DNA from: Sporomusaceae bacterium
Lineage (GTDB): Bacteria > Bacillota > Negativicutes > UBA1444
Length of the DNA stretch: 63,896 nucleotides
NCBI GenBank assembly: GCA_018434355.1
Contig: JAHDPL010000026.1
Span: 1 to 63,896, forward strand
Direction of reading: 5' to 3'
Shown: piece by piece, positions 8,242 through 63,749 of the stretch
Position numbering within the stretch: the first letter of the stretch is position 1
Layout: every line of letters begins with the position of its first letter
Notes under the pieces: model-generated
The model's input: the letters and a program-made list of their open reading frames with translations, nothing else
Told to the model about the DNA's origin: nothing
Databases searched by the model: none
Program-made: the position numbers and the translations under genes

Positions 8242-10383
8242 ATGGAAAAGAATTTATTATTTGCCCTGGATATCGGAACCCGCAGCATCGTCGGCATGGT
8301 CGGCGAAAAAACCGAGGCCGGCATTCGCGTGCTTGGCGCGATTCGCCATGAGCATACGACCCGGGCCATGCTGGACGGGCAGATTCACGACGTACCGGAA
8401 GTCGCCAAAGTCATCCGGTCGGTCAAGGCGAAACTGGAGTCCGAATTCGGTCCGCTAAAGCAAGTGGCTATCGCCGCCGCCGGTCGCGCCCTTTCCACCC
8501 TAAACGCAAACGCCGAGCTGGATGTCCACAGCAAAGGCTATCTGACGCTGCAGGAAGAGCGCACGCTGGAACTGACAGCGATCCAAGCCGCGCAAAAACA
8601 GCTGGCAACGACCCGCGTGGTCAATGATCCGGCCAGTTATTACTGCGTCGGCCACAGCATCGTAAGGTTCGCTCTTGACGGGACCACGATGAAAACCCTG
8701 GTCGGGCAGCGCGGTCAAAAAGCCACGGTGGAGATCATCTCCACTTTTCTGCCCCGTCAGGTCATCGATTCGCTGCAAGCCGCCGTGATGGCCGCAGGCT
8801 TGGAGATCGGCACCCTGACGCTGGAACCGATCGCCGCAATCAATGTGCTGATTCCGCCAACGATGCGCCACCTGAATCTGGTACTGGTCGATGTAGGAGC
8901 CGGAACTTCCGACGTGGCGGTCACCCGCAACGGCTCGGTGATCGGCTACGGCATGGTTCCGACTGCCGGCGATGAAATCACCGAAGAGCTGTCGGCGCAG
9001 CTGCTGCTGGACTTCAAAGTGGCGGAAGCGCTGAAGCGCAGGCTTGGCCGCAATGTAAAGAACCTTCACTACGTCGACATCCTCGGCCTGAAACACACGG
9101 CGCCGCCGGCCGATATCATCCGCAACATCACTCCGGTTGTCACGGAACTGGCGCAGGCGATTGCAACTCAGATCATGCAACTGAACAATACGGTGCCGCA
9201 AGCGATCCTATTGGTCGGCGGCGGTGCGCTCACGCCGCTGCTGCCGGAAATCCTGGCGCAAATTATGGACATGCCAAAGGACCGGGTCGCGGTACGCCGG
9301 CCCGACGCCATCGAAGACGTTTATGGAGTCACCGCAGACTTCTGCACGCCAGACGCGGTTACGCCGCTTGGCATTTTAAAGATCGCCGGCGCGGAAACGT
9401 TGAACTTCCTTAACGTTACGCTAAACGGACAATCGCTGCGCCTGTTCAACCTAGGCGGCCTGACTGTCGGCGACGCCCTGCTGGCAGCCGGCATTGATGC
9501 ACGCAGCTTGAGTGGTCGTCCCGGCATGGGCATCACGCTTAACATCAACGGCGAACGAAAATTCATTGCCGGCACGCACGGGCAAACCGGTCAACTCACT
9601 GTCAACGGGAAGCCGGCGCTATTCAGCGATACAATCAACGAAGGCGACCTGATTCAAGTGGAAAAAGGCCAGGACGGGGTCAGTCCCGCCCCCTGCCTCG
9701 CCGAACTGGTCGAGCTGCCTGCCGCTTATCCCGTCCGCATCGAAGGCAAGCCTTACCAGATTCGCCCGCTGATTTTTGTCAACGAGCGCCCTGCCACAGC
9801 CGAGCAAAAACTGTGCGACCGCGACCAGGTCGTCTGGAGTCCGGCGGATAATATCGACCGGGTGTTCCGTTCCATCCGGTTCGAGCTGGAAGCAAAACGG
9901 TTTCAGTATATCGTGAACGAAACAGAGCGCACTCATTCAGTCTGGCCAACCTTTGTCCTGAATGGCCAGCCTGCAGACCCGACTACGCCGGTTCACGCTG
10001 ATGACGAAATCACGCTGATTCCGCCGACCACGCCGGAAATCGGCAAAGTCATCGGCTTCTGCGAGCAGGATATCGAGCCGATCGAAGTCAGTTTCAACGG
10101 CATCAGCTGCACGGTTCCCACCCGGCGCTATACCCTGAGCCTAGGCGGCGCGGCGGCCAGTCTGAACGACCCGGCGCCGGACGGAAGCATCATCGAGTTC
10201 ACGCTGTCCCAGGCCAGCCAGCCTACGTTGGCTGATGTCCTGCTGGCGGCGGAATTCAACCCTTGCGACCTGCCCTCGGCAGGCGGCATTACCGTTGTCG
10301 TCAATAATAAAGTCGCGGAATACACTGCCATCATCAAGAATGGCGATAAAATCGATATTTTGACCAAAGATCCTACCAAATGA
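8242..10383 (+). CDS. FtsA-like actin-fold ATPase with long C-terminal extension
   Basis: This protein has 713 residues, against about 420 for ordinary FtsA. The first ~370 residues follow the FtsA/PilM plan: phosphate-1 LDIGTRSIVGMV, an SHS2-like insert, phosphate-2 LVDVGAGTSDVAV near residue 215 and adenosine motif LLVGGGALTPLLPEIL. The remaining ~340 residues contain repeated segments of the form VNG-x-A-x-F...GD-x-I, at about 453-475 and 685-705, each preceded by LxDxLLAAxx. They resemble small beta-grasp (ThiS/TGS-like) domains. The C-terminal membrane helix of true FtsA is absent. It stands alone between a promoter and a terminator, away from ftsZ. The exact role is unknown; a cytoskeletal or pilus-type ATPase is possible. 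Confidence 0.75.
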   Translation: MEKNLLFALDIGTRSIVGMVGEKTEAGIRVLGAIRHEHTTRAMLDGQIHDVPEVAKVIRSVKAKLESEFGPLKQVAIAAAGRALSTLNANAELDVHSKGYLTLQEERTLELTAIQAAQKQLATTRVVNDPASYYCVGHSIVRFALDGTTMKTLVGQRGQKATVEIISTFLPRQVIDSLQAAVMAAGLEIGTLTLEPIAAINVLIPPTMRHLNLVLVDVGAGTSDVAVTRNGSVIGYGMVPTAGDEITEELSAQLLLDFKVAEALKRRLGRNVKNLHYVDILGLKHTAPPADIIRNITPVVTELAQAIATQIMQLNNTVPQAILLVGGGALTPLLPEILAQIMDMPKDRVAVRRPDAIEDVYGVTADFCTPDAVTPLGILKIAGAETLNFLNVTLNGQSLRLFNLGGLTVGDALLAAGIDARSLSGRPGMGITLNINGERKFIAGTHGQTGQLTVNGKPALFSDTINEGDLIQVEKGQDGVSPAPCLAELVELPAAYPVRIEGKPYQIRPLIFVNERPATAEQKLCDRDQVVWSPADNIDRVFRSIRFELEAKRFQYIVNETERTHSVWPTFVLNGQPADPTTPVHADDEITLIPPTTPEIGKVIGFCEQDIEPIEVSFNGISCTVPTRRYTLSLGGAAASLNDPAPDGSIIEFTLSQASQPTLADVLLAAEFNPCDLPSAGGITVVVNNKVAEYTAIIKNGDKIDILTKDPTK

Positions 10384-36426: not shown

Positions 36427-38313
36427 TTAAAACGGCGAATCGTCACGTTGGTTGGAAAACAGGTTTTCCGGATAATACCCGATATGCAGGGCGCCCCGCC
36501 CATAGAGGGCGCGGACCTGGCGACTCAGTTCGTCACGCGGCACCCAGCGCTTCTGCGCCCAGTCATAATTTTGCAGCTTGAACAGCACCCTGTCGGCAGC
36601 GCCCTTTTCCTTTAGCGCCTTTTCTGCAAGTTTTTCCAGCCAGGCCGTCGCCTGATGGCCCTGTTTCTCCATGTAAGGATAGGCCATGATTACTGTAAAA
36701 TCATAGGTTTTCAGATATTGTTCATAGTCCTGGGCAAACCACTCGATCGCATTGGGGTTCAACACCGCCTCGGCGTAAATGTTGCGAGCTGAAGGCGAAT
36801 TGGGTCGATAGGTCCGGATAATGCCGATCAGTTCTTCGGTCAGTTGATTCATGACCGTAGATTTCATGCGCGTCCATTCCTGTCGAATCGCTGGTTGGCG
36901 CAAAATTTCCGGCGTCAGTTCTTCGCCGAAACGTTCTTTGAACACCTGTTTTGCCGCCGGCGAGAAATCTTCATAATCGTTCATGAACAGATCGTCCTGA
37001 AACAAAACGCCGTTGATCGGCGCATACATCGCCAGTTCCCGGGCCATCTGCCGGAGTTGATCCCGCACCCGCGGACTGAACGGAGTGGCCCGGTTGTACC
37101 AACCCAAGTTCTTGGGGTCATAAGCAACGATCCGGTCTTCCGGATGGTCCTGGGTCAGCCACTGCCCCGACAAGGTAGGGATCCATGCGTACACCATCAC
37201 CCGCGCATTGCGCAACCGGTTGACAACGTGGGAAAACACATCGACTTTCACCGGCGCCACGCTGTTGGTAAAATAGACGCTGCTGGTTTTGCCATCACCC
37301 TGACTGTCAGAAAAGGTCTGCAAATAGACGGCTGTGGCATTGGTCCGGGCAATTCGCTCAAGTAACATCCGGATATTGGCGTTCATCTGAACAGGATCAG
37401 TGTCGTAGAGAGAGTCGATATCGACCTGCACCACCCGGACATTTTTCAGCTCGAAGCCGCCATCGGCAACGAACTTGCTAAATCGACCGATGTCAGGGTT
37501 TCCCCAGATCAGTCCGCGTTTACCAGCCCGGAGGCTGCTGTTTCCGGCGTAATTGACGCCGCCCTCCAGGCCGAAGGTGACCTCATAACCGGCCTCCATG
37601 GCTGCCTCGATAGTGAAGTCATTGTATTCGCCGTACGGCCAGACCATGGCCCTAACCTTATGTCCCAGTTCACGCTCGAACAGTTCCTGCCCTTTGCGCA
37701 TATCCGTGCGGATCCTTTGCTGGTAATCCGCCAACGTTTCATAGCGACCATTGGCATATTCCAGCGTCGACGCCGCATGGCCAGGATCACCGTAGGCATT
37801 GGAAATCACCGAATAATGCAGGTTGTAGGAATGGGAAACCACTTCCACCAGCCCTGATTTATCCAGTTCACGCAGCTGATCCCAGGTCATGATTTTATCA
37901 GGCGTTGGTGCGGGCGCAACGGCCCAGATGCCTACCATTGCGACCGTCGCCGGATATTTGTACTCCTTCAGCAAAGGAAAAACCTGGGTATAAAACGATA
38001 CGTAGGAATCATCGAAGGTCAGCAGCACGCTTTTGGCCGGCAGCTGTTTCTCGCCCCGGTTGAAGCGGATATAATCATCGAGGCTGACAACGCTATAGCC
38101 GTTCTGGCGCAGGTATTCAAAATGGGCCCGTAGTACCTGCGGCGTAACGGTGAATGTATTCGCCTCGCGACCGGTGGTGTAAAACGGCCCCACATGATGA
38201 TAGCAAAGCACGGTGACTCCGGGCTTCGTCGCAGTCTGCGCCGCGGCAGTCGGCCCGCTCGCAACGCCGGTGCCAAAAATAAGCGCCAGTATCAGGATCA
38301 GCATTTTTCTCAT
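36427..38313 (-). CDS. pgaB: PNAG N-deacetylase/hydrolase
   Basis: A 628-residue secreted protein. A signal peptide (~1-25) is followed by a NodB-type deacetylase domain with LTFDDSY (metal Asp) and the HSYNLH metal motif. A C-terminal glycoside-hydrolase-like domain has VQVDIDSLYDTDP and GVLFQDDLF. This is the full two-domain PgaB plan (E. coli protein 672 residues). It partly deacetylates PNAG in the periplasm so that it can pass the outer-membrane porin. No lipobox Cys was seen near the cleavage site. Confidence 0.93.
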   Translation of the reverse strand: MRKMLILILALIFGTGVASGPTAAAQTATKPGVTVLCYHHVGPFYTTGREANTFTVTPQVLRAHFEYLRQNGYSVVSLDDYIRFNRGEKQLPAKSVLLTFDDSYVSFYTQVFPLLKEYKYPATVAMVGIWAVAPAPTPDKIMTWDQLRELDKSGLVEVVSHSYNLHYSVISNAYGDPGHAASTLEYANGRYETLADYQQRIRTDMRKGQELFERELGHKVRAMVWPYGEYNDFTIEAAMEAGYEVTFGLEGGVNYAGNSSLRAGKRGLIWGNPDIGRFSKFVADGGFELKNVRVVQVDIDSLYDTDPVQMNANIRMLLERIARTNATAVYLQTFSDSQGDGKTSSVYFTNSVAPVKVDVFSHVVNRLRNARVMVYAWIPTLSGQWLTQDHPEDRIVAYDPKNLGWYNRATPFSPRVRDQLRQMARELAMYAPINGVLFQDDLFMNDYEDFSPAAKQVFKERFGEELTPEILRQPAIRQEWTRMKSTVMNQLTEELIGIIRTYRPNSPSARNIYAEAVLNPNAIEWFAQDYEQYLKTYDFTVIMAYPYMEKQGHQATAWLEKLAEKALKEKGAADRVLFKLQNYDWAQKRWVPRDELSRQVRALYGRGALHIGYYPENLFSNQRDDSPF

Positions 38314-38325
38314 CGTTACTCCCCC

Positions 38326-40656
38326 TTACCAGCTGAGATTCACATTCAGGTCACACTGGAACTTGCTGAAATCAATCGACGAACTCCCCCTTGCGTTCTT
38401 GGACGTTAGGCCATATTCGCAGCCTGTCGTCAGATAAAACAAAGAAGTGAAGTAATGTCCATACTCCAACCGCAGATAGGGGCTGAAATCCCAGGCAAAC
38501 GGGTGATCGCCGCCATATTCGACAAAGGCCTTCCATTCCCAATAGCCTCGTTTCATTTTTAAGCGGTTGGCCAAACCGGTGCCGAAAGTCTGCCTGAGCG
38601 CCGGACTGTCATAGAGGTTGCTGGTAAATGCGTAGCCAGAACGGCGAAAATAACTTGACCAAATCAGCCGCCGCTGTGGATCGTCCCGCAACGTCCGGCT
38701 CCATTCGATGCTTTGGCTGTTATTTTTGTTTCCGTCCGTGAAATTCCCCTCAGAGTATGCGACAGTAAAGCTGTCCCGCTCGCGCGGTCGGCTTCCGTCC
38801 GGGGACGGAACCATGGTTCGCCAGGTATAATAAGCGCCATAATTGCGGGCCATGATCCGCTGACGGACGGCATCGGCCTCATCGACGGGGCGGTAGTTTG
38901 TATATAATGTCAACGAACTGATATCGTTGGGATAAAGGCTGAAATCGATCCGGTGCCCGTCGAGTCCTGTTAAGTTGGCAAAATCCCACCAGGCACGCAG
39001 GTCATATTTCATGCCCCGGATCCACAAACCGGAGGAAAGAGTGGTATAGTCGGCAACGTCGCCGTTATCGGTGTTGCGAAGATGAATTCGCCTGGTCTGC
39101 CCCATCAGTCTGACATTGCCTGCTATGTGCTGCCAGAAACTGGCCTCTGCGATTGTGTTTTCCTTGCCCTTATAGTCGCGATAATAGACAAAGCTACTGC
39201 CAAGCGCACCTTTTTCCCGTTCCTCATACTCCCGCACCGCCTGCGCCGCCACCGGATTCTTCAGTTGCTGCCGGTCCAGTGTATTTAGGACAGAGCGGGC
39301 CTGCCCATAGTCGCCGACTGCTGTCGCCGCCTTAGCTATTCCGGCCTTCCCCGCCGTTTCGCCGCCCGGCAATCCCCGTAGCACCAGATAATTCTTATAG
39401 GCCTCGCGCGGTAATCCGCTGAGCAGCAACTTATCGGAATAATGCCGGTAAAAAGCAGCATTGGGCGGCACCTTCTGGTTGAGCAAAGCAAATACTCTTT
39501 GGGCGGTCCATAACTTGCCCTGGGAGACAAAGAACAGACAGTCGTCCAGGACCACTTCTGCCAGTCGCTTGTCCTGGCTCAGCACCCGGTCATACAGCTG
39601 CAATGACTCAGCGACCTGCCCTAACAATCCTTTAGCCACTGCCGTACCCAGCATCGCCAGCTGGTTTTTCGGCTCTGCCGCCAGCACGATCGCATAGGCG
39701 CCGATGGCCTCCTGCAAGTTTCCGTTCTTGAGGAACACGTCCCCCAACACTCTGACTCCGTATACCGGCGCCTTTTTCAAGTCCGGCCAGAAACCAGCGG
39801 CAGCGGCAATCGCCTCGGCAAACTTTCCGTTTAGGCGCAGTGCATAAATATAATCGGCCTGCATCACCGGGTCAGCTTGTTTGGTATCAATATAGGGCTT
39901 TAAAATCGCAATCGCCTGAGCGATATCGTTTGAGCGCAGACTTGCCGCAGACCATAGCGAATCCGCCTGGCGCTTTCGTTCTGCATCGCCTTTTTTGTCG
40001 GCAATTTTCGACGCCAACTCCAGGTCCTCGGCCGCCTTACGGTTGTCGCCATTGATCAGTCTCGCCTGCCCGCGTGAAATCAATACTTCCAGATCTTCCG
40101 GGTTCATCGCCAGATACGCCTCATAGATTCTTTGCGCCTCCGCCGGGTTCTGTGTCCGAATCAGCAACTCTGCCGTGCGGATGCGGTACCGCCGCTCGCC
40201 TCCGGCAGAAAGTTCCTGCAGCAACGGCAGCGCTTCGGCGAAACGTTCCTGGCGACTGTAGGCATTGGCCATCGCTTCCTTCAGATACACCGGCAGATCG
40301 CGGCGAATGCGCAACTTGGCCTCATAAAAATCAGTCGCACCCTTGTCATCGCCGGACCAGTGCAGCACCATCGCCGAATCGATCCAGACTGGCGCCGCAT
40401 TCGGATAACGGCTGCGCAAATCGGCAAAAATAACCAGCGCCTGCTTAAAATCGCCGGCGCGGGCCAGTTCGATCCCTTTGTCATGCGAAGCCTGCCAAGG
40501 CTCTGCCGCCAACGCACCGGCCGGAAACACAGAAAAGACAATAACCAGGACCAACAACCAGGAAACGCAGGACAGGAAGCGGTTCCTGAGGAACCGCTTC
40601 CTGTCCTGATTTTGACTCTTTGACAAATCAATCCGCATTGAATTATTCATCTGCAT
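38326..40656 (-). CDS. pgaA: Outer-membrane PNAG export porin, TPR plus beta-barrel
   Basis: A 776-residue protein with a long signal peptide ending AGALAA (~residue 51). About 430 residues of tetratricopeptide-like repeats follow (e.g. LELARAGDF, LRSRYPNAAP). The C-terminal ~280 residues are rich in alternating polar/aromatic strands and end in DLNVNLSW, a terminal aromatic residue typical of outer-membrane barrels. This is the PgaA architecture. A porin of this type in a Firmicute-like genome implies a diderm envelope. Confidence 0.87.
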   Translation of the reverse strand: MQMNNSMRIDLSKSQNQDRKRFLRNRFLSCVSWLLVLVIVFSVFPAGALAAEPWQASHDKGIELARAGDFKQALVIFADLRSRYPNAAPVWIDSAMVLHWSGDDKGATDFYEAKLRIRRDLPVYLKEAMANAYSRQERFAEALPLLQELSAGGERRYRIRTAELLIRTQNPAEAQRIYEAYLAMNPEDLEVLISRGQARLINGDNRKAAEDLELASKIADKKGDAERKRQADSLWSAASLRSNDIAQAIAILKPYIDTKQADPVMQADYIYALRLNGKFAEAIAAAAGFWPDLKKAPVYGVRVLGDVFLKNGNLQEAIGAYAIVLAAEPKNQLAMLGTAVAKGLLGQVAESLQLYDRVLSQDKRLAEVVLDDCLFFVSQGKLWTAQRVFALLNQKVPPNAAFYRHYSDKLLLSGLPREAYKNYLVLRGLPGGETAGKAGIAKAATAVGDYGQARSVLNTLDRQQLKNPVAAQAVREYEEREKGALGSSFVYYRDYKGKENTIAEASFWQHIAGNVRLMGQTRRIHLRNTDNGDVADYTTLSSGLWIRGMKYDLRAWWDFANLTGLDGHRIDFSLYPNDISSLTLYTNYRPVDEADAVRQRIMARNYGAYYTWRTMVPSPDGSRPRERDSFTVAYSEGNFTDGNKNNSQSIEWSRTLRDDPQRRLIWSSYFRRSGYAFTSNLYDSPALRQTFGTGLANRLKMKRGYWEWKAFVEYGGDHPFAWDFSPYLRLEYGHYFTSLFYLTTGCEYGLTSKNARGSSSIDFSKFQCDLNVNLSW

Positions 40657-40660
40657 TGCC

Positions 40661-42691
40661 TCATGAAATCAGATCGGGAGGATCTTTTTTAGGAGCAACA
40701 GGCTGCGGCGGCGCCGGTTGGTTCGTCTGACTTCGTCGACGCCGCATAGTCCGCGAGAACAGGATCAACAGCAGTAATAGGGCAAACAGCGCCGCCGCCG
40801 TCAAAATCAAATTGCGGTTCTTGTCCCAAATCCCAACTAGCAACCCTTTTGCCGCCGGCCGCTCGACTCGCACGCTCTTGTCTCTGACATCAAAGGAGTA
40901 GATTCGGTCCGGAGAGCGATATACCATTACGTTGCCGCTCATCTCGCCATAATTGCCGGAGCGGTTCAAAAAGCGCAAAGCATCGCCCAACATCGAGCCA
41001 TCAATGTTGGCGCTGAGAACGACCAGCGGATGATTTCCGTTTTTCCCGATCCTGCCAACGACAGCGTTGACATTAGCTTGATACTCAAACAAGGTGGTTT
41101 GAGTTTCTTTGCGAAACAGCGTAAAATCGCGGCCCAGAGCGATGGGCATTTTATCTTGGAAAATCGGCGGTACGTTGCCGGTAACGGCCAGCACCATAAC
41201 ATACTGCTCTGCAGGCACCGAAGTCTGAACCGATAATGGCTGGGACAAAGGATAAGCGTACACTCCGACCGGCAACTGTCGATTCATCAGCCATACAGTT
41301 TCAGAAACCAGTCGCAGCGTTGTGTTGCCGAGTTTCTCATCCACCAATAGTGTGCCTGGACCGGCAAAGAATAGCCCGATATTTTGCCAAGTGAAGTCCC
41401 TGTTTTTGTATTGCCCGGCGCCCCACAGATAACTGTTGGGAAATATCTGCGCCGACTGCACCTTGCCGCGGACCCGGCAAACCCCGGGCTCCTCGGGATA
41501 GTTGAACTGAACGTTCAGATTGTTGCGGGCAAACAGCTCCAGCCCTGCCGGCAACAAAATGTCGCGACTGAAACGCCCTGTCTGATCCAGCACGGAACTG
41601 TGCACCAAATTGCTGTTAAAAAAGACATCTAGACGAACCGGACGCGCCGGCTCAAAAGATACGGTATGAGCCCCCTCCAGGTGCAGCCCCATCCGCTCGG
41701 GGATCTTGGACAAAAGGGCCGGATAAAGTGAAAAATCTGCCGGTACTAGCAATATGCCTTCCTGGACGGCAGCATTGCCGAAGGATACTGCTTCGGCGGC
41801 CTTGCCGACCGGGGTATCGACTGGTTGGATCGTGATTCGCTGACTAGCCGCCGGATTGACCGGAAATACAGGAAGATCGGCCAACTGTTTGACCAACTTG
41901 CCAAGCGCCGGCGTATCGGCGGCAGAAATCAGCAGGGTATTGGAATCGGCGAGCGCGATACCGGCCTGGGTTTTATTAAAATAAGCAGGCAGCTGGTTGC
42001 GCAGCCCGACCCAGATTCTCGGCGCCGGCGGTTTTCCTGCCAGCTCGGAGGCCTTGAAAACCTGGATGTCCAGATGAGGATAAATCCGGCGTAGAATACC
42101 ATACGTCCAAGCGGCCGGCATCGTTTCCGGCAATACAGCGCTATCGGGTACGACTACGTATAGCGATTGCTGAAAACTGCCAAAGAAATCCGCCACGGTC
42201 TGCACTGGCAACATGTCATAGTTCAGACTGATTCGGCTGTCCTTGTGCAGCGTGAAAAACAGACCGCCGGAGTAGTAGTCGCGGCACAAATCATCGGTAA
42301 TGAACATATTGGACTTGATTTGCAGCCGCAAGGTTTCGTGATACTCCCGCGTCAACGGCAAATTGAGCGTGAATGTACGGCGCTGTCTCAATTCTTTGAC
42401 AGTCCGCGTTTCCACCAGTTTGTCATTAAAATAGAAGAAAAAGATCGTTTCTGCATTAAGTTGCGAATTGGGCGTCAGGGAAATAGTCGCCGTGGCTGAC
42501 TTTATCCTGGCCAGGCGGGGAGTCGGGACCTCCAGTGTCAGTGAAGAATACGGCGCGCTGACTGGAATATCGGCCTCATAGCCAAGAACATCAAGTCCAA
42601 TATTCCGGCTGATTGCTTCTCCTTGGGGCATCTGGAAAAGCAGCATGAGGAAACTTACCAAGAGAGCAGCAAAAATGTTTTGAACCTTCAT
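40661..42691 (-). CDS. BcsB-like periplasmic membrane-anchored subunit
   Basis: A protein of about 676 residues with a signal peptide (ending QGEA) and jelly-roll-like beta segments (SATATISLTPNSQLN, VEVP-type strands). A C-terminal transmembrane helix (~640-660) is followed by a basic, Pro-rich tail. This matches BcsB, the subunit that guides cellulose out of BcsA, and is not a standard Pga protein. It lies five bases before pgaA and is the first gene of the operon. The start is uncertain: the ATG at 42691 gives a clean signal peptide, but GAGGAG lies ~15 bases upstream; ATG at 42706 or TTG at 42721 are alternatives. Confidence 0.75.
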   Translation of the reverse strand: MKVQNIFAALLVSFLMLLFQMPQGEAISRNIGLDVLGYEADIPVSAPYSSLTLEVPTPRLARIKSATATISLTPNSQLNAETIFFFYFNDKLVETRTVKELRQRRTFTLNLPLTREYHETLRLQIKSNMFITDDLCRDYYSGGLFFTLHKDSRISLNYDMLPVQTVADFFGSFQQSLYVVVPDSAVLPETMPAAWTYGILRRIYPHLDIQVFKASELAGKPPAPRIWVGLRNQLPAYFNKTQAGIALADSNTLLISAADTPALGKLVKQLADLPVFPVNPAASQRITIQPVDTPVGKAAEAVSFGNAAVQEGILLVPADFSLYPALLSKIPERMGLHLEGAHTVSFEPARPVRLDVFFNSNLVHSSVLDQTGRFSRDILLPAGLELFARNNLNVQFNYPEEPGVCRVRGKVQSAQIFPNSYLWGAGQYKNRDFTWQNIGLFFAGPGTLLVDEKLGNTTLRLVSETVWLMNRQLPVGVYAYPLSQPLSVQTSVPAEQYVMVLAVTGNVPPIFQDKMPIALGRDFTLFRKETQTTLFEYQANVNAVVGRIGKNGNHPLVVLSANIDGSMLGDALRFLNRSGNYGEMSGNVMVYRSPDRIYSFDVRDKSVRVERPAAKGLLVGIWDKNRNLILTAAALFALLLLLILFSRTMRRRRSQTNQPAPPQPVAPKKDPPDLIS

Positions 42692-42775
42692 ATGAATATA
42701 ATTCATCTCCTCACGCAACAAGTCTGACGCCCACTTAAGTTAGTGCAATAAAATGAATATTCCACACGCGACAAC

Positions 42776-53338: not shown

Positions 53339-55465
53339 TCAGCCGGCCGGTTTGCGGGTCAGGGTAAAGTAATCGGCGTCCGCTTTGATCATGTGACCGA
53401 TGATCACATCGTCCACAAGGAACGAAAGGAATGCAGACGGTTTGATTTCAGCTTGTTGATACGCCGTTTTCAACCGTAGCGCCTTGGCAACCAGCTGCCG
53501 ATGCTCGGTCGCATGTTCATCCGCTTGGGCAAAGCCGAGTTCCTGCAATACGGATTCTTCAAAAACAAAGTGCTGCACCAGATGCTCTAGCAGACGGTCC
53601 AGGCGGGGTAAAATTTCCGCCGGGTCCTGCCGGCGCAGCAGCGCCACTCCCATCAACCGATTGGCATCTTCCACCAGCGCCTTGTGCTGCGCGTCGATTT
53701 CGGCATGGCCGCTTTCCCAGTCCGACAGCCACTCCACATGCACCGACGCAACTGGCAGGCTTTCCTCAGTACAAGCCGTCACCCGGTTGCGCCCGGCCTG
53801 CTTGGCTTGATACATCGCCGCATCGCAGCGTTTATACCAGTTTTTGAACGACTCGGCCCGGTTGCGTTCGGCAACGCCAAAACTGGCAGTCACGACACCA
53901 GCAATGGGATGTGGTGAAATTTCCAATACCGTTCGGATTTTTTCCGCCGTGATCACTGCGGCGGTCACTCCGGTACGCGGCAATACGGCGAGAAACTCTT
54001 CGCCGCCAAGGCGTATCAACAAATCCGATTTGCGGACCTGCTCTCTAGACAGTCGGGCCGTTCGCTGCAAAACCTCATCGCCGACCAGATGCCCCCACTT
54101 ATCATTCACCGTTTTGAATCGGTCCAAATCAAAGATAATCATCGAAACCGGCTCCTGATAACGGTCAGACAGCTCCATCACCGAATCAATCTCCCGATCC
54201 AGCAACTGGCGGTTGTTCAGCCCGGTCAGCCGGTCGGTCATTGCCATGTCGGCATGGATATCTTTTAACCGGCGTTCTTCCAGCATGCTTTCCTGCAACC
54301 GGATTACGCCACGGGCCAGCAAGCCGATTTCATCGTTACGGTCGGATTCGGCCTGCAAGAACGGCGTTGTCTCACCGGCACTCACGCTTTTTTGCGCCAG
54401 GACGATTTTTTGCAGCGGCTGAAACAAACGGAAATGGAAGTAACCCAGGATAAGCACAACAAACCCCACAGCCAGGGAAAATTGCAATACAGCAATTTGC
54501 AGACTGGTCGCCGCCCGTTCCTTTTCACGCATTGCCTGACTGCGGGCTTCGGCATTGGCCTGTTTAATCAAACCAAAGATGGAATCCATCGCCGGAACTG
54601 AAAGTGCAGCCAGCTGCTCCACCAGAATCCCCGGCGACTGGCCGGCCATCACCAGTTCCAGCATTTTTTCCTGTACCGAGCGATAATCCCGGTAATACAG
54701 CTCTTCGATCCGGTTTTTTTGTGCGAGCAAGGCAGGACTGGCAAAAGCATACGTGTCCGCCGCAATCCTTGACCATATGTAGTCAGCCTGGGCGCGCAGC
54801 TCGATATAGGACTGATACTCCGCCGCGGTGACCGGACCGGCTTTATTCAGCGCAGACGTCACGACACTGGCGCTTTTTCCGGCAATCAACCGAAACTCGA
54901 TTCCATTGAACTGGTATTTGTGATAGAGATCGAACTGTCCGGCAGCGACTTCGCTATGGCCCAACTGGGCGAACGCATCGCGCAACTGCTCAATAAAATG
55001 GCTTGCCTGTTCGAACCATTCGTTGCGCAACTTTGGCTCTCTCACCTTCCCCGGCAGGTTGAACGCAACATCGACCCGTTCGCGTAGTTGGCGGAATTTC
55101 GCGTACTCCGCCTGCAGCGGCCCTACCAGCTGCGGTTCAATTTCCGCCAGCATTTTCAGGCTGGCCGCAATTTCTGCGTCGGCAAGTTGGCGGCGCGATT
55201 GAATGAACGCCAGGTTTGGCAAATCAACCGGTTGATTTGCCGCCAAGATCACATTGGTTCTGCCGCGCTCAAACGCCAGATTTTCAATGGCTAGGATCAG
55301 ACGGTCATCGCAATGGTGGATCGCCTCGATCCGTTCCATGCTGGCGTAGTCGCCGCGCGCCTGCTGGAGCAGCATGACAGAAAAGCCGACCAGCACCAGA
55401 CTGATCAACAAAATGCAACTTACCAGTTTCGTTTGCAGCGATATCGCACTGATCCGGCTATTCAA
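53339..55465 (-). CDS. Diguanylate cyclase with C-terminal hemerythrin domain
   Basis: A protein of about 708 residues. It has a first transmembrane helix, a ~280-residue extracytoplasmic helical sensor, a second helix (~330-350), a HAMP-like stretch, a GGDEF domain with intact active site GGEEF (near residue 485), and a C-terminal bacteriohemerythrin domain. The di-iron ligands are all visible (HAEIDAQH, HFVFEE, EHATEH, IGHMIKAD). It should make cyclic di-GMP under control of an external signal and oxygen or redox state. The TTG at 55465 follows AGAAGGA; a TTG 24 bp upstream is possible. Confidence 0.9.
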   Translation of the reverse strand: MNSRISAISLQTKLVSCILLISLVLVGFSVMLLQQARGDYASMERIEAIHHCDDRLILAIENLAFERGRTNVILAANQPVDLPNLAFIQSRRQLADAEIAASLKMLAEIEPQLVGPLQAEYAKFRQLRERVDVAFNLPGKVREPKLRNEWFEQASHFIEQLRDAFAQLGHSEVAAGQFDLYHKYQFNGIEFRLIAGKSASVVTSALNKAGPVTAAEYQSYIELRAQADYIWSRIAADTYAFASPALLAQKNRIEELYYRDYRSVQEKMLELVMAGQSPGILVEQLAALSVPAMDSIFGLIKQANAEARSQAMREKERAATSLQIAVLQFSLAVGFVVLILGYFHFRLFQPLQKIVLAQKSVSAGETTPFLQAESDRNDEIGLLARGVIRLQESMLEERRLKDIHADMAMTDRLTGLNNRQLLDREIDSVMELSDRYQEPVSMIIFDLDRFKTVNDKWGHLVGDEVLQRTARLSREQVRKSDLLIRLGGEEFLAVLPRTGVTAAVITAEKIRTVLEISPHPIAGVVTASFGVAERNRAESFKNWYKRCDAAMYQAKQAGRNRVTACTEESLPVASVHVEWLSDWESGHAEIDAQHKALVEDANRLMGVALLRRQDPAEILPRLDRLLEHLVQHFVFEESVLQELGFAQADEHATEHRQLVAKALRLKTAYQQAEIKPSAFLSFLVDDVIIGHMIKADADYFTLTRKPAG

Positions 55466-55567
55466 ACAAAAGTTCCTTCTTTCCCGCAAATTTGCGCGCC
55501 GGCCTTATTGCATATCGTTCCACTTTTAAGGTAACAACTCCTGCAATGTCAGACGAATTGGGGAACA

Positions 55568-55626: not shown

Positions 55627-56793
55627 CTATTTCTGTTTCAGTCTCTGCAATTTTTCCACGGCGGCTTGCAAGGTCGACATCTCTTTGCAGAAGCAGAAGC
55701 GGATGAATTTCTTGGCATCGGGATGGCCCGGTCGGTAGAAACTGGAGCCGGGCACCGTGGCCACGCCGATTTCCGAGGCCAGATAAAACGCGAACGCCAC
55801 ATCGTCGTCCCAGCCGAACGGTTCGATCTCGGCCATGATGTAGTAGGCGCCGCCGGGACGCACGCAGCGGAAGCCGACGTCTGTCAGCGCCTGCAGCAAG
55901 TAGTCGCGCCGCTCGCGGTAAAAATCGCTCAGTTCCTGATAGTAGCTGTCGGGGAAGGCGAACGCCTCGGCGCAGGCTTCCTGAAGCGGGGCAGACGCGC
56001 CGACAGTAAGGAAGTCGTGCACTTTGCGGATCGAAGCGGTCAACTCGGCCGACGCCATGATGAAGCCGATCCGCCAGCCGGTCACGCTGTAAGTCTTGGA
56101 GACGCTGTTGACGGCAATCGTCCGCTCGGCCATGCCGGGAAGCGTCCACAGCGGAATATGCTCGGCCCCGTCATAGAGGATGTGCTCATAAATCTCGTCG
56201 GTGATTGCCAGGACATCATATTTTTTGCACAGCTCGGCGATGAATTCCAGGTCGCTGCGCGAGAACACCCGGCCGGTCGGGTTGTTCGGCGAGTTGATGA
56301 TGATGGCGCGGGTCTTTTCGTTAAATGCCGCTGCCAGCTCAGCCCGGTCAAACGAGAACTCGGGCGGGTTCAGGCTGACGAAGCGCGGCGTTGCGCCGCA
56401 CAGGATGGCGTCCGGCCCGTAGTTTTCATAAAACGGCTCGAATACAACGACTTCTTCACCCGGGTTGACGGTCGCCATCAACGAGGCGATCATCCCTTCG
56501 GTCGCGCCGCAACATACGGTCAGATTGGTTTCCGGGTCGAGCTGCACGCCGTAATCGCGGAAGGTCTTGGCGACAATCCCGTCGCGCAGGCTCTTGGTGC
56601 CCCATGTGATCGCATACTGGTTGTGGTTGTTCATGATCGCCCGGCAGGCGGCGTCCTTGATCTCAGGCGGCGCAGGGAAATCGGGGAAACCCTGGGCCAG
56701 GTTCACCGCTTTATGTTTGGCAGCGACGCGGGACATCTCCCGGATCACCGATTCCTTGAACTGGGCTGCCTTGTGGGAAACAAACTCTCTCAC
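55627..56793 (-). CDS. Class I/II pyridoxal-phosphate aminotransferase
   Basis: A 388-residue fold-type I aminotransferase. The PLP lysine is in SVSKTYSVTGWR (K233). NSPNNPTG and TDEIYEH are also typical, and the N-terminal NLAQGFPDFP resembles the glutamine/methionine/kynurenine transaminase branch. The substrate is uncertain. GTG start with AGGAGG upstream; it overlaps the preceding gene by four bases (GTGA). Confidence 0.92.
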   Translation of the reverse strand: MREFVSHKAAQFKESVIREMSRVAAKHKAVNLAQGFPDFPAPPEIKDAACRAIMNNHNQYAITWGTKSLRDGIVAKTFRDYGVQLDPETNLTVCCGATEGMIASLMATVNPGEEVVVFEPFYENYGPDAILCGATPRFVSLNPPEFSFDRAELAAAFNEKTRAIIINSPNNPTGRVFSRSDLEFIAELCKKYDVLAITDEIYEHILYDGAEHIPLWTLPGMAERTIAVNSVSKTYSVTGWRIGFIMASAELTASIRKVHDFLTVGASAPLQEACAEAFAFPDSYYQELSDFYRERRDYLLQALTDVGFRCVRPGGAYYIMAEIEPFGWDDDVAFAFYLASEIGVATVPGSSFYRPGHPDAKKFIRFCFCKEMSTLQAAVEKLQRLKQK

Positions 56794-60356: not shown

Positions 60357-60965
60357 ATGAGTGAAAAAGTAGTCAACAAACTTTCTGTCGCCAATCCTAC
60401 CGGTCTCGGCCTGTTTGGCCTGGCCATCGTGACCTTTGTGGCGGCCTCGCAAAAGCTGGGGATCACCACCGGACTTTCTTATGTTATCGTATACGCCATG
60501 TTCCTCGGCGCGACTGCGCAACTCGTCGCCTGCATCTTCGACTTCTTCCATGAAAACATCTGGGGCGCGACCGTGTTCGGCGCTTACGCCTTCTTCTGGT
60601 ACGGCATCGCTACTTGCTGGCTGATCAACATGGGCGCATTCGGCCCGGCGCTGCAAAAAGCGGTCGACGTCAAGCAAATCGGCTTTGCCTTCCTCGGCTA
60701 CCTGATTTTCTCGGTCCTGATGACCATCGGCGCGATGGAAGTCAACAAAGTCATTTTCGCCGACATGGTTGTCATCGACATCCTGCTGACCGCCCTGACC
60801 CTCAACGCGTTCGGCGTTGCCAAGGAATTGACCGGCCTGATCGGCGGCATCGCCGAAATGGTCACCGCGCTGATCTCCTTCTACGCCTGCGCCGCGGTCG
60901 TGCTCAATACCCACTTCGGCAAGCCGTTCATGCCGATGGGCAAACCGTTCGGCATCTTCAAATAA
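60357..60965 (+). CDS. GPR1/FUN34/YaaH-family acetate transporter
   Basis: A 202-residue membrane protein with six helices. It begins with the family motif NPTGLGLFGLA and continues with ATAQLVACIFDFFHENIWGAT, where the F-x-x-x-N-x-F/W block is typical. Bacterial relatives (SatP) take up acetate or succinate with protons. AGGAGG lies 11 bases upstream of the ATG. It is transcribed alone, in the opposite direction to its neighbours. Confidence 0.92.
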   Translation: MSEKVVNKLSVANPTGLGLFGLAIVTFVAASQKLGITTGLSYVIVYAMFLGATAQLVACIFDFFHENIWGATVFGAYAFFWYGIATCWLINMGAFGPALQKAVDVKQIGFAFLGYLIFSVLMTIGAMEVNKVIFADMVVIDILLTALTLNAFGVAKELTGLIGGIAEMVTALISFYACAAVVLNTHFGKPFMPMGKPFGIFK

Positions 60966-60993: not shown

Positions 60994-61039
60994 AAAGCCG
61001 CGACCACCAGCCCGACAGGGGTGATGGTCGCGGCTTTTT
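60994..61039. terminator. Terminator after yaaH-like gene, probably bidirectional
   Basis: AAAGCCGCGACCA ... TGGTCGCGGCTTTTTC, a 13-bp stem. It also faces the end of the Cys-rich peptide gene from the other side. Confidence 0.85.
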
Positions 61040-61052
61040 CGTTGTCTGTAGC

Positions 61053-61298
61053 TTACTTGAAGCCCTGCACGCAAGTCGGCGGCGGTACTTCGGGCGGGCG
61101 CTGGTTCACGCAGGTGTTGGAGGTGCAGCTGGTGACGCAGAAACTGTTGCACTGCGTACACAGACGGCTCGGCTCGGCCGACGCGGCCGAAAACACCGAC
61201 AACACCTCGCAGGCCGCCGTCGCCACGATGGCTACGCCGCATTTCACGCAAAATTCACGCCTGGACAGAGCCTCTTTGCCTTGCTGTTCCGTTCCCAT
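61053..61298 (-). CDS. Cys-rich peptide with Tat-like leader, candidate RiPP precursor
   Basis: An 81-residue peptide. The N-terminus contains SRREFCVK (residues 12-19), close to the twin-arginine consensus. A hydrophobic stretch and an A-x-A site follow (SAASA, residue 41). The predicted 40-residue core has six cysteines spaced C-x2-C-x3-C-x3-C-x4-C-x12-C (C47 to C76), with Thr and Ser between them and a Pro-rich turn. Three more Cys are in the leader (17, 20, 30). AGGAGGGATTGAG precedes the ATG. It follows the radical SAM/SPASM gene by 48 bp. The Cys pattern recalls SCIFF-type thioether peptides, but those lack a Tat leader. Alternatively it could be a small Tat-exported metal-binding protein. 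Confidence 0.75.
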   Translation of the reverse strand: MGTEQQGKEALSRREFCVKCGVAIVATAACEVLSVFSAASAEPSRLCTQCNSFCVTSCTSNTCVNQRPPEVPPPTCVQGFK

Positions 61299-61346
61299 CT
61301 CAATCCCTCCTGTCTTGATTCATTGATCCACTCTGTGCTTTTCCTT

Positions 61347-62879
61347 TCAACAATACTTCGCTTCTGGTCCGTCGCTGCGGATTGGCGGGGTTTCGCAGCC
61401 GTCAGCGAGTCGCGCCGCCTGTTCGGCATATTCCCACAACAGTACTTCCAGCACTTTTTTCGTATATTCGCAGTTGATCCGTTCCGCGTAACTCTGAGCT
61501 TTGAGAGACAAATCCGTGCGGCCCGCCATCGCCAGCATCTGCACCGGACAGCCGCCACCGCACAGATAGCGCCATGCGCACGACTTGCAATCGGATCGCT
61601 GATCGACATGCAGTTCTTCCACCAGGGCCACCGCCACCGCAGGGTCGGGGTAACTGCCGCTCAGCACATTTCCCTGATTGTAACGCTTGATCCCCACCAG
61701 ATAGATGCAGGGATATACATCGCCGTTCACGTCCACCACCGGCGTATTGCCGAACGGTGCGCCGCAACCCAGTACGCAGTAATTGCCTGGCTGGATCTTG
61801 GACCGGAACGTGCTGAAGGGGAACAGTCGCTCCAGACCCCAGTCGCCGTTCGCCTGAATCTTGAGCAGCGAAGCCAGCAGTCGGTCAACATCGGGAATCA
61901 GTTCATCCGGCAGCAGTTCCTCGTCGGAGTTCACTGCATTCACCGGCACGAAGGCCGAGCCATTGCCGCCCAGAGCGAAGTGATGCCGGGCGGTTTCGGC
62001 CATCTGGTCCTGATTCAGCGCCGTCACGGTCGTGCGCAGGTTAACTGGGATTCCAGCCTCGGTCAGCTTTTTCACGTTGGCGGCGATCGCAGCATGTGAA
62101 CCGGCGCCGCCCTTGTAAGGACGGCAAGCGTCATGCACGCCGCCCACCCCGTCGATATCGCAAAGCACCGTGATGCTATGCGCCTTTACCCTGTCGATGA
62201 AGTCCTCCGGCAGAAAACTGAGATTGCTGGTCACATGGTAGCGGAATTCGATATCCGGATACTTCGGCTTCAGCGCCGCCTCGGCGTAATCGATCGTGCG
62301 TGTCGCCAACTCCCAGTTCAGCAGCGGCTCGCCGCCAAACATCGCGATTTCGAGAAACCCGCCCGGTTTGATGCGGGCCGCGCAACTCTCTACCGCCGTG
62401 AAAGCGACTTCCTCCGTCATCATCGGATGTTCGCTTTTCCGGTAGGTGCGCTTGCCGTTCAGGCAATAGATGCAGCCGAGATTGCAGTCTTGCGATAGCA
62501 ACAAATAGAGCGACATCCCCGGCGACAACGCCGTCAGTTCTTCTACTGTCGGCTTGGCGGAGGGCGGCGCCAACTCGTCCTCGCTGGTGGCGACCAGGAT
62601 ATGGTGGCTGATCAAAAAATCGATGACGGCAGTTTCTTCCGGCCACAGCGCAGCAAGTTCGTCGCGGCTGAGCAGTCCACAGTCGGCGCTTGCCAGCAAT
62701 GCATCGACAAACTCGCGACCACGCCGGAACAATAGCGGCCGGGGCTGCAGCGAGTTCAGCAGCAACAGGCGGCCTTCCCGTTCCAGACGAATCAGATTGG
62801 CGGTCACTTTCAGCGGGGTATCGCCCGCCACCAGTGCTGCTTTATCCATGCTCTCCATCCCATCGCCCTTATCGGTCAT
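61347..62879 (-). CDS. Radical SAM/SPASM peptide maturase with PqqD-like N-terminus
   Basis: A 510-residue enzyme. Residues ~20-100 look like a PqqD-like winged-helix (RRE) domain that binds leader peptides. The radical SAM cluster motif is C132-x3-C136-x2-C139, followed by FGGEPLL. A SPASM domain has cysteines 368, 372, 391, 431, 434, 440, 444 and 470, enough for two auxiliary Fe-S clusters. This is the typical layout of RiPP maturases that form thioether or C-C links. The likely substrate is the six-Cys peptide encoded next. The ATG at 62879 has only a weak ribosome site (GAGAAAGA); residues 8 and 11 are alternative starts. Confidence 0.9.
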   Translation of the reverse strand: MTDKGDGMESMDKAALVAGDTPLKVTANLIRLEREGRLLLLNSLQPRPLLFRRGREFVDALLASADCGLLSRDELAALWPEETAVIDFLISHHILVATSEDELAPPSAKPTVEELTALSPGMSLYLLLSQDCNLGCIYCLNGKRTYRKSEHPMMTEEVAFTAVESCAARIKPGGFLEIAMFGGEPLLNWELATRTIDYAEAALKPKYPDIEFRYHVTSNLSFLPEDFIDRVKAHSITVLCDIDGVGGVHDACRPYKGGAGSHAAIAANVKKLTEAGIPVNLRTTVTALNQDQMAETARHHFALGGNGSAFVPVNAVNSDEELLPDELIPDVDRLLASLLKIQANGDWGLERLFPFSTFRSKIQPGNYCVLGCGAPFGNTPVVDVNGDVYPCIYLVGIKRYNQGNVLSGSYPDPAVAVALVEELHVDQRSDCKSCAWRYLCGGGCPVQMLAMAGRTDLSLKAQSYAERINCEYTKKVLEVLLWEYAEQAARLADGCETPPIRSDGPEAKYC

Positions 62880-62892
62880 TCTTTCTCACAGT

Positions 62893-63453
62893 CTAAAAAT
62901 CGCGGTTTGTTGCGCGTTGTTTTTCTTTTTCCAGCAAAGTCTGGTTGTCATAGTTCACAAACACCCGACTGTTGTCGCCGCCTTTGTGCGGATAGTTTTT
63001 TCCCAGCTTGACCAGAATGCGGACGCCGTTCTCGTCAATCGTCCAGTAGTCGGAATCGTCATAGGGGCGCTTGGTCGGCTGGCCATACTTTTTGATCATT
63101 TGCGCTTCGATATCGCGGAAATAATAGTCGATCGTAGCATTGCTGACGTTGCCGTACGCATGGTAGGTATCGACAAACAGGGCCCCGCCGCTGTAGAACA
63201 CATTGTTGACAAAGCGGAATGTCAGATACGCCTTGCGAGCGGCAAACATCCCCTCGTAAATGTCTCTTTGAACATTCGATTCGGCGTCTTTGGGGAAATG
63301 CAATTCGGCCATTTTTTGCGCGACAGCACTGCGGCTGGTCCCCCAGGCAATGTCCATGAATCCGTCAGCACCGGTCGCCCCAGCCAAGGAAGCCCCTGAG
63401 AGCAACAGCACCAGCAATGCCCCCAGCAAGGCGCGTCTACATCGTTGCAGCAT
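62893..63453 (-). CDS. Secreted protein of unknown function
   Basis: A 186-residue protein with a clear signal peptide (LLGALLVLLLSGASLAGA). The mature part begins FMDIAWGTSRSAVAQKM, a pattern seen in several small secreted families where W-G-x-S/T starts a helix that tracks an alpha/beta domain. A Tyr-rich central stretch (FVNNVFYSGGALF, YYFRDIEAQMIKKYGQP) follows. There is no Cys in the mature part. It ends 13 bp before the radical SAM gene, so it is likely part of the same operon, perhaps as a partner in export or binding of the peptide; this is inference. Confidence 0.7.
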   Translation of the reverse strand: MLQRCRRALLGALLVLLLSGASLAGATGADGFMDIAWGTSRSAVAQKMAELHFPKDAESNVQRDIYEGMFAARKAYLTFRFVNNVFYSGGALFVDTYHAYGNVSNATIDYYFRDIEAQMIKKYGQPTKRPYDDSDYWTIDENGVRILVKLGKNYPHKGGDNSRVFVNYDNQTLLEKEKQRATNRDF

Positions 63454-63497: not shown

Positions 63498-63749
63498 TCA
63501 ATTGCCGGCTTGCCAATTGTGCGATCCGCCTCGCGAACAACTGCCTGGCGAAGGCTTATTGCCGCTTTTGGTCACGATGTGAAAGCCGCATTTGGAGCAG
63601 ACCCAGGACCCGGCCGCCTCAGCCACGCCGAGCACCTTGAGCCGGGCTTCGCCAAGCATGCTGTTTTCTGCGGGATTGTGAACGATCGCGCCTGCTAGGG
63701 CCAGAATGCCGATGACCGACAAAATACAGACCAATTTGAGTTTTTTCAT
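63498..63749 (-). CDS. Small secreted zinc-ribbon-like peptide
   Basis: An 83-residue protein with an N-terminal hydrophobic segment (LVCILSVIGILALAGAIV) that may be a signal peptide or anchor. The C-terminus reads WVCSKCGFH and, ~15 residues later, a third Cys and GGSHNW. The single CxxC plus Cys/His could bind a metal. GGGAGG precedes the ATG. It is the first gene of the putative four-gene peptide cluster; the ~150 bp upstream to the window end shows no gene and no clear promoter. Confidence 0.65.
   Translation of the reverse strand: MKKLKLVCILSVIGILALAGAIVHNPAENSMLGEARLKVLGVAEAAGSWVCSKCGFHIVTKSGNKPSPGSCSRGGSHNWQAGN

Follow-up and report, generated by a model that had tools for sequence, protein, structure and literature searches.

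A six-Cys peptide with a Tat-type leader, paired with an RRE-containing radical SAM/SPASM maturase, in a Sporomusaceae bacterium

The gene pair, its locus and its distribution

The window, by which we mean the whole 63,896-nucleotide stretch of Sporomusaceae DNA that was analyzed, carries on its minus strand a gene for a radical SAM/SPASM maturase and, 48 nt downstream of it, a gene for a short Cys-rich precursor peptide (Table 1). Both open reading frames had been called by the first-pass annotation; when checked against the sequence, their positions and the descriptions of peptide and maturase proved accurate. The precursor gene has its own Shine-Dalgarno sequence, and is convergent with an acetate transporter gene (60357-60965). 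The strong inverted repeat located between these two genes is likely, judging by its sequence, to be a terminator common to both. This repeat was read directly from the sequence; the repeat scan missed it, its loop exceeding the limit of that scan. Among the window ORFs, no ABC exporter or peptidase gene was found between or directly beside the members of the pair.

Table 1. Coordinates of the gene pair, its elements and related loci; positions refer to the window unless a locus is named
Feature	Position	Strand	Remarks
Maturase gene, 510 aa	61347..62879	-	N-terminal RRE, radical SAM core and SPASM domain
RRE (PqqD-like winged-helix leader-binding) domain	62589..62822	-	About residues 20-97 of the maturase
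Radical SAM CX3CX2C motif, C132/C136/C139	62463..62486	-	Pfam PF04055, 46 bits
SPASM auxiliary-cluster region, C372 to C470	61470..61766	-	TIGR04085, 51.4 bits (cutoff 27)
Shine-Dalgarno AGGAGG of precursor	61306..61311	-	7 nt before ATG, read from sequence
Precursor peptide gene, 81 aa	61053..61298	-	
Leader, residues 1-41, Tat-type signal	61176..61298	-	SRRxF, hydrophobic stretch and A-S-A kept in L033
Twin-arginine motif SRREF, residues 12-16	61251..61265	-	SRRSF in L033
Six-Cys core, C47 to C76	61071..61160	-	Spacing 2,3,3,4,12; all six Cys kept in L033
Inverted repeat AAAGCCGCGACCA...TGGTCGCGGCTTTTT	60994..61039	.	Strong; between acetate transporter gene and precursor gene
Aminotransferase gene	55627..56793	-	Ortholog of the aminotransferase adjoining the cassette in L033
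57-62-aa peptide loci	L034:7731-10868, L035:4761-6513, L036:7622-10926, L037:5942-6752		
G310 WG-repeat protein and maturase	L171:6303-9375		

Only one other genome, a Sporomusaceae MAG (genome G133, locus L033, both from the same record), was found to carry the two genes together, and their order there is the same. This MAG belongs to a different family of the class from the window host. The two enzymes are 64% identical and the aligned peptides 71%. Within the peptide, 30 of 35 residues of the core (L46-F80) are identical between the window and L033, along with 22 of 30 in the leader; conservation of the core exceeds that of the enzyme. The neighborhoods of the two cassettes are otherwise different, apart from an orthologous aminotransferase gene that adjoins the cassette in L033 and is located 4.3 kb from it in the window. 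The window aminotransferase is 57% identical to the L033 ortholog (472 bits; the second-best copy in the genome scores 221 bits). It is possible that this gene has a functional link to the cassette, or that it is a relic of an ancestral neighborhood. In L033, an ABC-transporter pair precedes the maturase gene by about 0.9 kb, with one unrelated gene in between. In the window, a gene on the same strand 14 nt upstream of the maturase gene (62893-63453) encodes a protein of 186 aa whose N-terminus resembles a signal peptide and which has no confident family, and an 83-aa membrane/Zn-ribbon-like protein is encoded further upstream (63498-63749); L033 has no conserved counterpart of either gene.

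The host genome has a single copy of the cassette. Conservation across the Negativicutes, to which the first-pass annotation had looked for support, did not materialize; the enzyme had only one other carrier (G133, peptide included) in a class sample of 300 genomes, so that the pair is very rare (2 of 300). The same annotation had held that a wide occurrence of peptide homologs without the enzyme would count against its reading. No such distribution was seen; searches of 150 class-level genomes and 398 phylum-level Bacillota genomes gave only the paired copies and weak, unrelated matches. Among the candidate homologs rejected, L043-L046 resemble flavin reductases and contain a CTQC motif by chance, and L047 and L048 have neither an RR nor a matching Cys motif. 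Neither maturase nor peptide was found in an incomplete genome of the same genus. Viral contigs yielded only generic SPASM enzymes (22-32% identity) and no peptide, plasmids searched for the enzyme with E up to 1e-30 gave no match, and relatives of G133 and of G310, a Bacillota genome considered below, had no further copies.

Features of the maturase and the precursor

A PqqD-like domain, a radical SAM motif and a Cys-rich SPASM domain had been attributed to the maturase, and each was recovered here. The radical SAM and SPASM regions were matched by PF04055 and TIGR04085 with the scores given in Table 1. The SPASM Cys residues follow the pattern C372x13Gx4C391, C431x2C434x5C440x3C444 and C470; all seven, together with the radical SAM Cys, are invariant among seven aligned homologs. 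A Pfam profile search found no PqqD domain in the maturase, but residues 16-108, when modeled alone with AlphaFold2 (pLDDT 88.5), take up an RRE fold. The best PDB matches of this model were PbtF-RRE (Z 8.8), TbiB1, McbB, ThcOx and MccB (Z 10.1), and it also matched TigE (Z 9.0); these top matches are known RREs. A model of the whole maturase, built from seven sequences, had a pLDDT of 76. Its best structural match was the SCIFF maturase CteB (5wgg; Z 28.8, 4.8 A, 408 residues), which spans maturase residues 26-488, from the RRE through the SPASM domain. Sequence comparison likewise places CteB nearest among solved structures (E 2.3e-42). With both sets of Cys, the RRE fold and an adjacent, co-conserved precursor, the maturase is an RRE-containing radical SAM/SPASM RiPP enzyme.

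The precursor peptide (MGTEQQGKEALSRREFCVKCGVAIVATAACEVLSVFSAASAEPSRLCTQCNSFCVTSCTSNTCVNQRPPEVPPPTCVQGFK) has nine Cys residues in total; C17, C20 and C30 are in the leader, and C47, C50, C54, C58, C63 and C76 form a core with the pattern C-x2-C-x3-C-x3-C-x4-C-x12-C. It should be noted that Cys count alone is no evidence for such a gene, the window having 16 further short ORFs, in any frame, that match the precursor in Cys-richness; a raw tally of Cys-rich ORFs was accordingly rejected as support. That the precursor is a real gene follows from its homolog in G133: of the 69 residues that align between the SRR motif and VQGF, 52 are identical, with synonymous differences in the codons for 23 of these 52.

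The leader (SRREFCVKCGVAIVATAACEVLSVFSAASA) has A39-S-A41 ahead of the core. The first-pass annotation had described it as twin-arginine-like. The L033 leader scored 19.0 bits on the curated Tat model TIGR01409 (cutoff 16.7) and was the best of two matches in its own genome, and TatC is encoded in both genomes (two copies in the host, G000, and one in G133). The window leader (SRREFCVKCG), in contrast, was not reported by this model at E up to 1. When peptides were shuffled and scored for [ST]RRx[FLMVI] with AxA at the right distance, this layout appeared 86 times for the window peptide and 6 times for the L033 homolog, with 200,000 shuffles of each. E31 interrupts the hydrophobic region of the window leader; acidic residues occur in this stretch in further Tat-type leaders of the host, one of which contains RRxFxxxCG. 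The sequences KCG and CExLSVFS, which are not Tat features, are likewise conserved between the window and L033 leaders. Because there are only two precursor sequences, a Tat constraint on the leader and a constraint from RRE recognition are inseparable, and by analogy the two may bear on a common set of residues. In bufferin and oxazolin, Sec and recognition constraints are reported to fall on the same leader residues (PMC13419390).

Relatives of the enzyme and comparison with known systems

In a tree of full enzymes, the window enzyme belongs to a new clade of eight sequences with support of 100/98, and SCIFF maturases fall outside it. Identity to the window enzyme is 42-46% for five relatives of full or near-full length and 38% for a fragment in L037. 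All of these come from MAGs labeled Alphaproteobacteria, Deltaproteobacteria, Planctomycetota and Bradyrhizobium. In these MAG relatives, a peptide of 57-62 aa ending in CxxCPxYTTVPCSC or similar is encoded directly upstream of the enzyme; these peptides have no RR leader and no match to an NCBIfam family. The G310 enzyme, also of this clade, is 39% identical to the window enzyme. Its gene lies 22 nt downstream of the gene for a WG-repeat protein of 546 aa, which has a lipobox-like LYGC and the C-terminal tail NPCDWSCTMGCTMGCTAVCTYV. In all seven clade loci, a Cys-rich peptide or tail is adjacent to the enzyme. These are of three unrelated types, and Cys-richness is the sole trait common to the substrates across the whole clade. 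Since a Cys-rich segment accompanies the enzyme at each clade locus examined, the window peptide would be the substrate of the window maturase. This is the strongest evidence for the pairing, which we regard as well supported. The WG-repeat protein, large and predicted to be exported, is likely a radical SAM substrate as well, and the substrates of both the G310 and window branches look to be exported. The three unrelated kinds of substrate, the tail of a large exported lipoprotein among them, suggest that the clade is a maturase family without a name.

The 57-62-aa peptides are themselves an unnamed family with a conserved E-x3-Y and SLC part and a core ending in YTTVPCSC. They are located upstream of one or two tandem radical SAM/SPASM maturases in MAGs of several phyla, and an ABC transporter gene comes next in L036. 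The tail of the G310 WG-repeat protein is CX3CX3CX3CX3C at its C-terminus.

For the window enzyme, all named NCBIfam maturase families were far below cutoff. The best score was to the ranthipeptide maturase family PapB (NF047865; 170.2 bits against a cutoff of 340, E 6.5e-50), followed by the nif11, SCIFF and QhpD models, again far below. Although PapB gives the best profile score, the window core lacks the Asp acceptor pattern of that family. SCIFF/CteB (TIGR03974) has in common with the window pair the RRE-radical SAM-SPASM architecture, a six-Cys peptide, a structural match over the full length and a spacing of 2,3,3 for the first four core Cys; this spacing may reflect convergence or remote kinship. 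However, the SCIFF enzyme is in another clade, and the SCIFF leaders compared here have no RR motif. The window enzyme scored 138.1 bits on TIGR03974 (cutoff 425) and is 31% identical to the SCIFF maturase of its own host. The window peptide had no match to TIGR03973, which in the whole host genome matched only on another contig (C51), where the genuine SCIFF of the host, MGKHIQTINNAPLTKTALTGGCGECQTSCQSACKTSCTVGNQSCQK, is found with its own maturase. The separation from SCIFF that had been drawn from the sequence at first reading is thus upheld.

The CXXX-repeat targets (TIGR04117/TIGR04115) resemble part of the window core in having Cys at every fourth residue. They differ in that the window pair is below the cutoffs of 50 (TIGR04117) and 350 (TIGR04115); the precursor match to TIGR04117 was weak (21.5 bits, E 1.8e-4), and this model was rejected as the parent family. 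No CXXX-repeat members were found in 398 sampled genomes for comparison of leaders. The MNIO RiPPs bufferin and oxazolin are, like the window peptide, Cys-rich, with an export signal that doubles as recognition leader (PMC12452194, PMC13419390), but their enzyme is an unrelated multinuclear iron oxidase and their signal is of the Sec type, as opposed to the radical SAM enzyme and Tat-type leader described here. The main text of PMC12452194 does not contain the word Tat. A search of open-access literature for radical SAM together with a twin-arginine leader returned nothing relevant. The window pair is within the radical-SAM Cys-rich RiPPs and makes no new category.

A proposed route and its alternatives

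The reading that we favor, at a probability of roughly 0.55, is that of a two-gene RiPP cassette with an RRE-bound leader, thioether-type crosslinks and Tat export of a pre-folded product. From the gene pair and its conservation, the domain architecture and the Tat-type leader, we infer a route that extends from leader binding by the RRE, through the crosslink type and the export route, to the site of action. In the cytoplasm, the RRE of the maturase would bind the precursor leader, as its predicted fold and the architecture suggest. The radical SAM and SPASM clusters would then crosslink some of the core Cys to neighboring residues in a stepwise manner. The leader would double as a Tat signal, with the crosslinked, pre-folded product crossing the membrane via the general Tat system, after which signal peptidase might cut at ASA, or the product might be anchored at C30. 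Export by the general Tat system would explain a cassette with no transporter or protease of its own. The crosslinks would probably be thioethers of the SCIFF/ranthipeptide type, by analogy with CteB and PapB; ranthipeptide thioethers are attached to a beta or gamma carbon (PMC8326336). Since the enzyme scores below cutoff for every family whose chemistry has been tested, the assignment of bond type rests on remote homology. Candidate roles for the product are signaling and, at the envelope, metal or redox binding. An antimicrobial role seems less likely, given a cassette without immunity or export genes. We propose more tentatively, and at somewhat less than even odds, that this would be the first radical-SAM RiPP with a Tat-signal leader, its peptide being pre-folded by cytoplasmic crosslinking and then exported by Tat, which requires folded cargo. 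The new maturase clade would, on this view, act more broadly on Cys-rich stretches in exported proteins, the C-terminal WG-repeat tail included.

The maturase might instead carry out other chemistry, such as a C-C or C-O crosslink, epimerization or partial use of the Cys, the remainder binding metal or forming disulfides after export. The scores of the curated maturase families, none of which reaches cutoff, are compatible with this, as are the chemical variety of RRE-bearing SPASM maturases and a core without the Asp typical of PapB-type acceptors. We nevertheless consider it rather unlikely, as CteB and PapB, which come closest in structure and profile, both form thioethers, the core Cys are fully conserved, and the clade substrates are alike only in their Cys-richness. 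A divergent SCIFF system, to which the 2,3,3 spacing and the closeness of the CteB structure might point, is highly improbable in view of the separate SCIFF and maturase of the host, the absence of a TIGR03973 match, the 138 of 425 bits on TIGR03974, the 31% identity to the host SCIFF maturase and the position of SCIFF maturases outside the 100/98 clade.

Other alternatives concern the leader. It could serve for RRE recognition only, the RR motif being coincidental in a basic leader and the product leaving by another way or staying inside the cell. The silence of the Tat model on the window leader, the acidic residue in its hydrophobic stretch and the conservation of KCG and CExLSVFS would agree with such a role. 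On the other hand, SRRxF and AxA are present in both copies and rare in shuffles, the homolog scores above the cutoff of the curated Tat model, with no better match in its genome, and the window pair has no dedicated exporter alongside; on balance this alternative appears unlikely. A Tat-dependent lipoprotein, in which C30 would be the lipobox Cys and the crosslinked peptide would be membrane-anchored and not released, appears distinctly unlikely. Here C30 is conserved within A-T-A-[A/S]-C-E, and the lipobox pattern fits both precursor copies at C30/C31. The G310 relative, moreover, has as its likely substrate a protein predicted to be exported, with a lipobox-like motif and a tail rich in Cys. 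However, the hydrophobic stretch that precedes C30 is short, at about 10 residues, Thr at -3 is atypical, the window copy has no K or R in its first seven residues, and the downstream ASA site is conserved too.

RiPP precursors with a general export signal are described as rare, and those known so far have Sec signals on MNIO substrates (PMC12452194). If Tat export of the crosslinked product is correct, the leader would link maturation by a radical SAM enzyme with export in the folded state, and would open the question of whether crosslinking acts as a folding check that licenses Tat transport. Tat has been suggested by engineers for lanthipeptide display, and preliminary attempts failed (PMC5686179); given those failures, a natural Tat-exported crosslinked peptide would be useful.

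Several other genes were noted in the window. The region 36427-42721 encodes a PgaB-like deacetylase/GHL13 protein with TPR and BcsB-like neighbors, and is probably an exopolysaccharide locus. A GGDEF diguanylate cyclase with a C-terminal hemerythrin domain (53339-55489) is possibly an oxygen- or redox-sensing c-di-GMP enzyme. A 713-aa protein (8242-10383) has matches to FtsA/MreB/PilM-like ATPases and a ThiS-like domain at its C-terminus.
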